Source: Mesorhizobium sp. M00.F.Ca.ET.216.01.1.1
GTDB taxonomy: Bacteria > Pseudomonadota > Alphaproteobacteria > Rhizobiales > Rhizobiaceae
Assembly (NCBI RefSeq): GCF_004010325.2
Contig: NZ_SADR02000006.1
Span: forward strand, 186,001 to 250,000
DNA length: 64,000 nt
Direction of reading: 5' to 3'
Position 1 is the stretch's first letter, and every line of letters starts with the position of its first letter. Both the position numbers and the translations under genes were made by a program. Positions 55,154 to 58,538 of this stretch are shown here, one piece after another. Under the pieces are notes generated by a model, which did not search any database, had not been told where the DNA came from, and saw only the letters and a list, made by a program, of their open reading frames with translations.

Positions 55154-56477
55154 TTGTCCGGCTTGGGCAGCATTCGGCGGGCAACGGGCATTTCTCTCGA
55201 CATCGCGATTGCCGGGGCAGGCCCGGCCGGACTGGCCACCGCGCTCTATCTCAAGCGGGCCGGGCACCGGGTCACCGTCTTCGATCGTTTCGACGAGCCG
55301 AAGCCGGTCGGTTCCGGGCTGATCCTGCAGCCGACCGGGCTGACAGTGCTCGCCGATCTCGGCTTGCTTGACGACATTCTGGTGCTGGGCAGCCGCATCG
55401 ACCGCCTGCATGGTGCAGACGCCAAGACCGGCCGCACCGTGCTCGGCGTCCGCTATGATGCCCCGCGCGGCCGCCGGTTCGGGCTGGCAGTGCACCGGTC
55501 GGCCCTGTTCGGCGTGCTCTTCCGTGCCGCCAAGCGCGAAGCGATCACCATGGAAACCAGCATCGAGATCGAGACGCTGGAGACCGGCGAACGAGCGATA
55601 CTGGTCTGCCAAAACGGGCGAAGGCTGGGGCCGTTCGATCTGGTCGTCGATGCCAGCGGCTCACGCTCCAAGCTGCGGCGACACTTGAGAAATCCGGGCG
55701 AAGTGCTGCCGCTTGCCTATGGCGCGTTCTGGGCGTCGCTCGGCTGGCGCGGCGACGGTTTCGACGAGAAGGCATTGCTGCAGCGTTATGACAGAGCAAG
55801 CGTAATGGTCGGTGTGCTGCCGATCGGCCGGCCGGAATCCGGCGCTGAAAAGATGGCGGCATTCTTCTGGAGCCGATCTCGAACGCGTGCGGGCGACAGG
55901 TCTGAATGCATGGAAGGCGAGGGTGGTCGAGCTGTGGCCCGAATGCCAGGCATTCACCGAGCAGATCGACAGTTTCGACCAACTTTCGCTGGCGCGTTAC
56001 GGCCATCACACGATGAAGCTGCCGGCCGGCCGGCGGTTGGCTGTTATCGGCGACGCGGCGCATTCGACCAGCCCGCAACTCGGGCAAGGGGCGAACATGG
56101 CGCTGCTCGATGCGGCGGCGCTCAACTACTCGCTTGCGCGGGCCGACACCGTCGACGCAGCGCTGGAGGCCTATGCCTGGGCGCGGCGATGGCACGTGCG
56201 GGTGTTCCAGGCGCTGTCGCTGATGCTGACGCCGTTCTACAAGTCGGATTCGATCGTAATGCCGTTCGTCCGCGACAGGCTGGTGGCGACGGCGCCGAAA
56301 ATTCCGCCGGCGCCGCAGTTTCTCGCCGCGATGGTGGCCGGAACCGTGATCGATCCGTTCACGCGGATCGGGCTTGCGGAAGCGCTGTGGCCGGAGCGTT
56401 CCGCTGGATTATTGTCGAAAGATGCGAGCCCTTCGCCTGCAGAAAGGCATGGAGGCGTCGCGGATAGTCGGGGGTGA
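55154..56477 (+). pseudogene. FAD-dependent monooxygenase, frameshifted
   Basis: The first frame (TTG 55154) has the dinucleotide motif IAGAGPAGLATALYLKRAGHRVTVFDR and the VVDASGSRSKLRRHL region, ending after AAFFWS at about 55871. A second frame takes over as ADLERVRATGLNAWKARVV and includes the GDAAHSTSPQLGQGANMALLDAAAL flavin/active-site motif, running to 56477. Neither frame alone holds both halves. The second frame's end overlaps the convergent GST gene by 119 bases, so the true C-terminus may also be altered. Confidence 0.82.
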
Positions 56478-57090
56478 CCGCGTCCATCACCGACCGGCGT
56501 TCACGCAATGCCTTGCGCCAGGCCTGTACAAGCGGCTTTCCGTTCAGGATGCCGAAATCGCCGATCTCGTCGAAGACGTCGAAGTAGCGGAAGATCGGCC
56601 CGTAGACCGCGTCGACCAGCGAAAAGCGCTCGCCGGCGAACCACGGCCCATGCCGGCCGGCATCCTGCGCCAGTTCCACTTCGACACGATCGAACATCGC
56701 TGCCAGGGCATTGCTTTCAGCGAGGAAGGCGCCTCCCGTCGGCGCGGAATAGAACCGGCTGATGGCGTTGAGAATGGCCGAGCCGAATTCGATCCAGGCG
56801 CGATGCCGGGCGCGGGCGAGCGGATCAGCGGGATGCAGCGGGTGGGCCTGCGTCTCCTCGAGGAATTCGAGGATGACAGCGGATTCGAAGATCACCGTTT
56901 CCTCGTCGTTTTGCTGGACGCGCAACAACGGCACCTTGCCAAGCGGCGATATCGCCTTGAACCAGGACGGCTTGTTGGCGAGGTCGATGGTGAGGCGTTC
57001 AAACGGCACGGCCTTTTCGCGCAGTGAAATCGCCGCGCGCTGCACGTAGGGACAAAGATGATGGCTGACGAGGATGAGCTTGCCGGACAT
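56359..57090 (-). CDS. Glutathione S-transferase family protein
   Basis: A 243-residue soluble GST: N-terminal thioredoxin domain KLILVSHHLCPYVQRAAISLREKAVPFERL with the SHHLCPYVQR start as the active-site region, and the KVPLLRVQQ...TVIFESAVILEFLE glutathione site; C-terminal all-helical domain. ATG 57090 follows GGGGAGAG at 4-5 bases. The Rieske gene ends one base upstream, so both are one operon. Confidence 0.92.
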   Translation of the reverse strand: MSGKLILVSHHLCPYVQRAAISLREKAVPFERLTIDLANKPSWFKAISPLGKVPLLRVQQNDEETVIFESAVILEFLEETQAHPLHPADPLARARHRAWIEFGSAILNAISRFYSAPTGGAFLAESNALAAMFDRVEVELAQDAGRHGPWFAGERFSLVDAVYGPIFRYFDVFDEIGDFGILNGKPLVQAWRKALRERRSVMDAVTPDYPRRLHAFLQAKGSHLSTIIQRNAPATALPQARSA

Positions 57091-57091
57091 T

Positions 57092-57397
57092 TCACTCTCC
57101 CCAGACATAGTTCAAGGCGCCGTCCTCGACGCGGGTGGAGAGGAACATGAGGCGGGAGCCTTTGGACGCCGGGCCTTCGAGGCGGTCGCCGCTCGCCATG
57201 TCGAACGAGGCGCCATGCCACTGACAGACTAGCTTGCCGTCCTTGCAATCGAGCGGCCCGCCGAAATGCAAGCAGACATTGGCAGCAGCGCGGATACGAT
57301 CGCCGCTGCGATAGACATGGACCTCGCGGCCGAAGAACGGCGCGATCAGGCTGCCCGTTTCGGGAATGTCGGCGGCCTTGCAGATTTCATGCTTCAT
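57092..57397 (-). CDS. Rieske-type [2Fe-2S] ferredoxin-like protein
   Basis: A 101-residue small Rieske protein: iron-sulfur ligands in CLHFGGPL (Cys-x-His) and CQWHGASFD (Cys-x2-His). It would transfer electrons to an oxygenase or serve in a redox step with the GST (for example in the breakdown of aromatic or haloaromatic compounds). ATG 57397 is preferred because the in-frame ATGs further upstream lie among the operator palindromes. First gene of the operon. Confidence 0.92.
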   Translation of the reverse strand: MKHEICKAADIPETGSLIAPFFGREVHVYRSGDRIRAAANVCLHFGGPLDCKDGKLVCQWHGASFDMASGDRLEGPASKGSRLMFLSTRVEDGALNYVWGE

Positions 57398-57416
57398 CGG
57401 TTTACCTTCCAAGATT

Positions 57417-57478
57417 GATGCAACCGCATCCATGTAGATGCATATGCATCGATCTGTCAAGCTTGATGCAATTGCATC
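57417..57478. promoter_or_regulatory. Three palindromic operator sites between the Rieske and MarR genes
   Basis: GATGCAACCGCATC (57417-57430), GATGCATATGCATC (57437-57450) and GATGCAATTGCATC (57465-57478) all follow GATGCA-NN-TGCATC, the first imperfectly. Start-to-start distances are 20 and 28 bases, roughly two and under three helical turns. They fill the 100-base divergent spacer and so could control both promoters. Confidence 0.7.
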
Positions 57479-57497
57479 TATCACCTATGCTGCAGCC

Positions 57498-57956
57498 ATG
57501 ACGGAGAAAGCCACCCCTTCGCCCGAAGCCATCAAGGCGTGGGCCCGCCTGATGCGGGTTTCGCGCCAGCTCGTGGAAAGTGCCGAAGACGCGCTGAAGG
57601 ACGGCGGCCTGCCGCCGCTTGCCTGGTACGACGTGCTGCACGAGCTTGCCGAGACGGGCGAGGGTGGATTGCGACCGTTCCAGCTGACCGAGCGTACCTT
57701 GTTCGCGCAATACAACATCTCGCGGCTGCTGGCGCGGCTCGAAGCCGACGGCCTGGTCGAGAAGCTCAGGGTTGCCGATGACGGCCGCGGACAAACCATC
57801 CGCATCACCGGCAAGGGGCGCGAAACCCGCCGTCGCATGTGGGCCGTTTACGGCCCGTCGATCGCGGAACTGGTCGGCGTCAGGCTTTCGGCAAGCGAAC
57901 TCGAAACCTTGTCGGGTCTGCTTGGGCGACTGCGCCATCCAGCCATCGTGGAATGA
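57498..57956 (+). CDS. MarR family transcriptional regulator
   Basis: A 152-residue winged-helix regulator: MTEKATPSPEAIKAWARLMRV then LAWYDVLHELAETGEGGLRPFQLTERTLFAQYNISRLLARLEADGLVEKLRVADDGRGQTIRITGKG (residues 44-110). ATG 57498 gives the usual MarR length. Divergent from the Rieske-GST operon, whose spacer holds three palindromes that suit a MarR dimer. Ligand probably a phenolic compound (inference). Confidence 0.93.
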   Translation: MTEKATPSPEAIKAWARLMRVSRQLVESAEDALKDGGLPPLAWYDVLHELAETGEGGLRPFQLTERTLFAQYNISRLLARLEADGLVEKLRVADDGRGQTIRITGKGRETRRRMWAVYGPSIAELVGVRLSASELETLSGLLGRLRHPAIVE

Positions 57957-58010
57957 CTTCTCCCGCTAAGCAGCCGATGCGGGGAAGCGGGTTGGCAAGA
58001 TGGCGCGAGC

Positions 58011-58445
58011 TCAGACCGGGTGGCTGCCCCAAAGGAATGCCAGGGCTGCCAGCACACCAAGCGCTGCGCGAACCAGGTGCAGATTGCCCCATTTGACGAT
58101 CAAGGCCCTGGCTTGCGGATTGGCGGCGGCCGCATCCATCGCCTCCAGCGATCTGTTTGTCGGCATCATCACTATCAGCGTCCACGGCCAGGGCAGGATA
58201 ATCAGCACCGCCCCGACCAGATAGGCGAGACCGCCGGTCTGCCACCAGGCAATGACACCGAAAACACAGGCGACAACGGCGATCGACGCCTGCATGGCGG
58301 CGCCGCGCTTGTAGGCGGGCTGCCATTCCTGCAGCAACGCCCGGTCATCGAGCTGAAGCCGGGCTGGCTGCTCGGCGACGCTGACATAGATGGCGGCGCC
58401 CGCAAACGCGGCGGCAACGGTCAAGGCAAGCAATCCGACGAGCAT
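58011..58445 (-). CDS. DUF1772 (anthrone oxygenase-like) membrane protein
   Basis: A 144-residue protein with four hydrophobic helices (LVGLLALTVAAAFAGAAIYV, AMQASIAVVACVFGVIAWW, LAYLVGAVLIILPWPWTLIVMM, LVRAALGVLAALAFLWG) and the conserved MMPTNRSLEAMD that is characteristic of DUF1772. ATG 58445 follows GGAAGAG. Divergent from a TetR repressor. Biochemical role uncertain; some members resemble anthrone oxygenases. Confidence 0.88.
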   Translation of the reverse strand: MLVGLLALTVAAAFAGAAIYVSVAEQPARLQLDDRALLQEWQPAYKRGAAMQASIAVVACVFGVIAWWQTGGLAYLVGAVLIILPWPWTLIVMMPTNRSLEAMDAAAANPQARALIVKWGNLHLVRAALGVLAALAFLWGSHPV

Positions 58446-58538
58446 CGTCTCTTCCACGACAAGCCGCCCACCACAGCGCGGCCTCAACACGAAATAAGGC
58501 TTGCACAGGTTTGGACAATACGCCATAGAAGCACAGAA

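Follow-up and report, generated by a model that had tools for sequence, protein, structure and literature searches.

Between a gene for a small Rieske protein and a divergently oriented gene for a MarR-type regulator, the stretch of DNA analysed here (the window, 64 kb in full) holds three copies of one palindrome, raising the question of whether these are operators and, if so, for which regulator and which genes. The spacer measures exactly 100 bp (57398–57497), from the Rieske ATG (57397, minus strand) to the MarR ATG (57498, plus strand). Genes and sites are located as follows:

56359–57090, minus strand: glutathione S-transferase (GST) of cysteine type, with LCPYVQR; alternative ATG at 57108
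57092–57397, minus strand: small protein of 101 aa with a Rieske [2Fe-2S] domain, containing CLH and CQWH
57417–57430: candidate operator O1, GATGCAACCGCATC, one mismatch; directly 3' of the predicted Rieske/gst -10 element, over the likely transcription start
57437–57450: candidate operator O2, GATGCATATGCATC, perfect; between the predicted -35 and -10 elements of the Rieske/gst promoter
57465–57478: candidate operator O3, GATGCAATTGCATC, perfect; overlaps the predicted marR -35 element
57498–57956, plus strand: marR, encoding a winged-helix regulator of MarR type (152 aa, cysteine-free)

All three sites are 14-bp palindromes of the type GATGCA-N2-TGCATC, with start-to-start spacings of 20 bp (O1–O2) and 28 bp (O2–O3). 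The earlier note had described three near-identical 14-bp palindromes in a divergent 100-bp spacer, two of them perfect, at spacings of 20 and 28 bases, and was accurate in each respect.

The regulator is a member of the MarR family, as indicated by its domain score (PF12802, MarR_2, 53.4 bits at a cut-off of 27; PF01047 stayed under its cut-off of 24.6 with 21.5 bits), by its fold matches and by the palindromes lying on both predicted promoters. Its model is a winged helix (pLDDT 92.3), and the solved chains closest to it belong to MarR proteins, in part complexed with DNA. With 32.6 bits against the HpaR equivalog TIGR02337 (curated cut-off 121.2), it does not qualify as HpaR. No clear ribosome-binding site was seen by eye before the marR ATG. 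The Rieske protein was assigned by PF00355 (46 bits, cut-off 20.3) and by the CxH and CxxH ligand motifs, read as CLH and CQWH; its score for the MocE subfamily (19.6) fell below the cut-off of 136.15. In the GST, both the GST_N and GST_C domains (PF13409 and PF13410) scored above cut-off, and LCPYVQR corresponds to the CPxxQR motif, which we take to be the mark of cysteine-type (omega/DHAR-like) enzymes. The solved relatives include omega-class GST (1eem, E 2.6e-17), and by motif and relatives the protein is provisionally classed as cysteine-type (omega/DHAR-like); domains and relatives were searched with the start at ATG 57108. The GST ATG at 57090 lies one base past the Rieske stop codon, and therefore both genes are probably carried on one transcript.

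At up to two mismatches, O1, O2 and O3 are the sole matches to the palindrome in the 64-kb window. A count of three is not unusual for a sequence of this size, shuffled windows yielding 4.7 on average and at least three in 86 of 100 cases; it is the clustering and the quality of the sites, not their number, that is unusual. Accordingly, when the spacer was shuffled 20,000 times with its dinucleotides preserved, 19,800 of the shuffles had no site at up to one mismatch, 199 had one, a single shuffle had two and none had three. In the own genome (7.24 Mbp), exact sites occur three times, namely O2, O3 and one (C22:84304) within an open frame of 716 codons, and 28 sites were found at up to one mismatch, compared to one for a reversed-pattern control. 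A wider regulon was considered and set aside. For this check 15 of the 28 sites were fetched, two of which are candidate operators of the present locus, while the 13 left out include O1. The 13 fetched sites from elsewhere all lie under stop-to-stop frames of 142–974 codons, such a frame being only a rough sign of coding; one frame of 279 codons has the site near its start, and the shortest one has 142 codons.

Promoter-like elements for both genes were found in the spacer:

57431–57436, minus strand: TACATG, predicted as the -10 element for Rieske/gst (TATATA in the genus consensus)
57455–57460, minus strand: TTGACA, predicted as the -35 element for Rieske/gst (TTGACG in the genus consensus) and separated from its -10 by 18 bp (17 in the genus consensus)
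57463–57468, plus strand: TTGATG, predicted as the -35 element for marR and identical in 92 of 92 profiled genus loci
57486–57491, plus strand: TATGCT, predicted as the -10 element for marR; 17 bp separate it from the -35 and 6 bp from the ATG

A strict sigma-70-like consensus scan of 56300–58000 reported no promoter, and hence none of these four elements. They emerge from a profile of 92 of the 94 distinct loci of the genus Mesorhizobium, the window and one further locus (L032) being set aside on account of other site spacings. The rightward set in this profile consists of TTGATG overlapping O3, 17 bp and TA...T, whose last T is kept in 85 of 92, and the leftward set of TTGACG, 17 bp containing O2, then TATATA with O1 immediately after. 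In the window itself the leftward -10 is a poor one (TACATG), and one additional base between O2 and O3 stretches the leftward -35/-10 spacer to 18 bp. How far O3 lies from the marR start differs between genus loci; since the predicted marR -10 ends only 6 bp before the ATG, the marR mRNA may be leaderless. In a survey of 56 site-bearing loci, mostly from outside the genus (three are genus rows), 34 had a predicted leftward promoter to the left of their last site, compared to 27 % of shuffled segments; among these 34, a site follows the -10 in 25 and lies inside the -35/-10 spacer in 18. The leftward-promoter signal, as read from sequence, is an excess over shuffles, not a universal feature.

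We consider it highly probable (roughly 0.88) that the MarR-type repressor encoded next to the three palindromes uses them as its operators; it would repress both Rieske-gst and marR and be released by a ligand. One MarR dimer would bind per palindrome. Dimers on O2, inside the -35/-10 spacer, and on O1, over the start site, would block the leftward Rieske-gst promoter, and a dimer on O3 would cover the -35 of the repressor's own rightward promoter, resulting in autorepression. A small ligand, perhaps electrophilic or aromatic, would then bind the dimer and free the DNA, upon which the GST (and the Rieske protein) would be induced for detoxification. The observations underlying this reading are the sites themselves, their conservation, their overlap with promoter-like elements, the co-occurrence with MarR and a residue correlation described below; from these, binding, repression and co-transcription are presumed, and the ligand class and the GST substrate are guesses.

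Within the genus, the MarR protein was matched in 117 of 146 genomes, and the O1–O2 tandem (up to three mismatches) was detected in 113 of the 146, once in each, while a reversed-pattern control gave none. Matched up by eye, the two lists comprise 113 genomes with both, four with MarR only (G201, G207, G216 and G261), 29 with neither and none with the tandem alone. MarR and GST accompanied the tandem in all of the 30 loci (out of 113) inspected. Of the 94 distinct genus loci, 92 share a spacing of 20/27, the window having 20/28 and L032 having 22/28. O3 is the most uniform site, without mismatch in 92 loci and with one in two; O1 has zero, one or two mismatches in 37, 48 and 9 loci, and O2 zero, one, two or three in 34, 46, 12 and 2. 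In the profile, the arms of O1, O2 and O3 carry on average 1.77, 1.71 and 1.99 bits of information, and the two bases at their centres 1.01, 0.30 and 0.81 bits. Such fixed arms around a freer centre are as predicted for contact with a dimer. The gaps between the sites (1.61 and 1.72 bits) are nearly as conserved as the arms, the flanks reaching 0.60 and 0.97 bits; this conservation of the gaps is ascribed to the putative promoter elements, and part of it may reflect recent shared descent.

The GST is present in all 94 genus loci and an intact-looking Rieske gene in 60, absence being defined as no opposite-strand hit at E <1e-10 within 600 bp, so that short remnants persist in some loci counted as lacking it. 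In several Rieske-less genus loci (e.g., L034, L039, L045, L081, L083 and L102), the GST start is fused to the first codons of the Rieske gene (MKHEIC etc.), a sign of repeated internal deletion.

Homologues from outside the genus were sampled in 121 genomes of the family (23 matched), 297 of the order (54 matched) and 385 of the class (28 matched), and in three further families (13 of 81, 2 of 8 and 27 of 81 genomes matched). The MarR row set comprised 174 rows that differ in upstream region and protein, loci L135–L149 and L210–L239 being excluded from such sets; filtering at <80 % identity retained 63 of 80 rows as outside representatives. GATGCA-N2-TGCATC is present in 39 of these 63 at up to one mismatch and in 53 at up to two; 24 have no site at up to one mismatch. 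Among all 4096 half-sites GATGCA ranks first, followed by its neighbours CATGCA and AATGCA, and permuted-palindrome controls hit on average 0.03 loci at up to one mismatch (highest value, 2 of 63) and 0.45 at up to two. A later set of 74 loci was reduced to 48 by removal of 17 duplicates and nine loci below 100 bits; NATGCA-type sites were found in 44 of the 48, and four received no label. Of nine low-scoring MarR paralogues, eight had no core-matching palindrome and the ninth two irregular ones.

On the opposite strand within 1.5 kb, the 128 distinct outside loci have a GST in 100 cases, DoxX in 19, YceI in 7 and a Rieske protein in 4; nothing was recognised there in 17, one of which has almost no upstream sequence. 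A subgroup of four loci (L024, L187, L191 and L193) faces a YceI-like gene, an assignment read from sequence and not from a domain search, and has GATGAA-type letters in one half-site. Judged from gene neighbourhoods, the constant partner of this MarR/operator pair is the GST, and the Rieske protein is optional. The proposal that MarR operators are clustered where a Rieske-GST operon diverges from marR is thus supported in its core, the tandem accompanying MarR and never occurring without it in 146 genomes, and the motif following MarR into other families; as to the controlled operon, its GST was present in every genus locus, while an intact-looking Rieske gene was not.

Some relatives have GTTGCA or ATTGCA half-sites, and the MarR column most informative on the second half-site base is residue 71, located just before the presumed recognition helix (74–83) in the model. 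Residues 60, 61, 64 and 99 follow close behind, and therefore descent plays a part. In the main count, 68 of 77 rows could be labelled and all 68 agree, 55 rows with Q having A and 13 rows with K or R having T. An earlier, looser count labelled 61 of 66 rows and contained two Q rows labelled T, each from single weak sites. In the later set, all 44 labelled loci combine Q with A (the labels of L251, L305 and L308 each resting on one weak site), and widening the sampling to class genomes and the three further families brought no new K/R rows, so that this set re-tests the Q/A half of the rule only. On the best tree, the distribution of Q versus K/R demands four changes, of which only one is forced by well-supported branches, and common descent may therefore account for the link. 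Residue 71 (Q or K/R) thus correlates with whether the half-site has A or T as its second base, possibly by descent.

Two genomes harbour two of these MarR proteins each (L179 and L184 in G304; L180 and L181 in G343), and in both pairs one is K-type with GTTGCA sites and the other Q-type with mostly A-type and some mixed sites. It seems to us an even bet that the proteins form an unnamed, class-wide family of GST-controlling MarR regulators with a specificity code, in which residue 71 sets the second base pair of the half-site, Q71 reading GATGCA and K/R71 GTTGCA or ATTGCA, and which would separate paralogues in the same genome such as those of G304 and G343. If the link holds, residue 71 would offer a ready specificity switch for the design of orthogonal MarR repressors.

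The spacing of the sites could also mean that the same repressor binds with strong cooperativity, dimer-dimer contacts setting the distances. We regard this as possible, if rather unlikely. It would suit the O1–O2 distance of 20 bp, about two helical turns, in 93 of the 94 genus loci, and the recurrence of spacings of 20 and 27–28 bp in several loci of other families. However, 27 bp corresponds to about 2.6 turns, and at a distance of 27–28 bp O2 and O3 do not face the same side of the helix; moreover, five loci (L006, L010, L013, L020 and L160) have just two sites 47 bp apart and no O2, and the promoter-like elements suffice to account for the spacing. The suggestion of the earlier note that the spacing may allow cooperative binding therefore finds some backing in the two-turn distance between O1 and O2, but cooperativity is not required, as promoter geometry fits the spacing.

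A TetR-type gene (58599) and an HxlR-type gene (54662) are both less than 3 kb away and accompany the locus in 76 of 76 and 62 of 76 long genus-type loci, respectively, so that either product could own the sites with MarR as a mere neighbour. This is highly improbable, as across families the motif sits upstream of this MarR and matches its residue 71, and as none of the 146 genus genomes has the tandem without a MarR match.

HucR, MftR and PecS are urate-responsive MarR proteins, and MhqR-type quinone sensors control DoxX-type targets. Both kinds resemble the window's MarR: the former three were close fold matches at up to 28 % identity (HucR profile E 1e-12), and the Staphylococcus aureus MhqR structure 9qdr was also among the fold matches, with DoxX being divergent in 19 of the 128 outside loci. 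The usual target of the present MarR is, in contrast to the MhqR type, a GST, and the likeness to HucR, which binds urate according to PDB titles, is one of fold only. The best profile matches were Streptomyces Sco3205 (3zpl, with DNA; E 4.7e-19) and AbsC (3zmd; E 5e-20), which have close folds and about 24 % identity in the fold alignment.

Closest in layout is EstR/estC of Agrobacterium tumefaciens, whose operators have been footprinted, one over the target's -10 and one overlapping the repressor's own -35 (PMC5201249). This system also combines a MarR-type repressor, a divergent target, 14-bp palindromic operators and autoregulation (PMC5201249), the latter being proposed for the present locus. 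By analogy, the arrangement in the window would fit repression of both genes. The EstR operator is given there as GTTATCGCGATAAC and occurs at two sites, whereas the window has three sites of the GATGCA type; furthermore, EstR senses organic hydroperoxide via Cys16 and controls an esterase (PMC5201249), whereas the window's MarR is cysteine-free and its divergent operon includes a GST. The shared layout is what could speak for a thiol-based redox sensor like OhrR or EstR, released from DNA by cysteine oxidation, but this is extremely unlikely: the reactive cysteine (Cys16 in EstR) has no counterpart in the window's MarR, which lacks cysteine altogether, and of the 94 genus rows 88 are free of cysteine over the first 150 residues, as are 114 of all 174 rows. 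A bound ligand is therefore more likely than thiol oxidation as the releasing signal.

That the palindromes are products of chance, or RNA hairpins or terminators, has a negligible likelihood even if perfect inverted repeats are able to fold and two perfect 6+6 repeats arose in 8 of 5,000 spacer shuffles, since the arm letters are kept while the centres vary, the sites lie over promoter-like elements of both genes, and the same letters recur in other families.

Since the same kind of site is recurrent in many relatives, that of the window very probably serves as a genuine repressor operator of an ordinary sort. The site cluster is real and conserved, and very likely functional; new are the wide GST-linked MarR/operator pair and the residue-71 correlation. 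Among the matches listed in a search of open-access literature, titles and abstract openings contained none on this MarR/GST pair, on the motif as an operator or on the residue-71 correlation. Together, motif and regulator would indicate which GST can be induced, across many rhizobia and other Alphaproteobacteria, and the triple-site layout would constitute a clean case of one repressor placed to shut two back-to-back promoters.

Two further genes flank the locus. Adjoining the GST, a gene for an FAD-dependent monooxygenase (55154–56477) is split over two frames (from 55154 on, and 55812–56477); its halves share one frame in 56 of the 59 relatives having both, and the copy in the window is therefore frameshifted or misassembled. 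Beyond marR, an Anthrone_oxy (PF08592) protein is encoded on the minus strand (58011–58448), and is present in 31 of 76 long genus-type loci.
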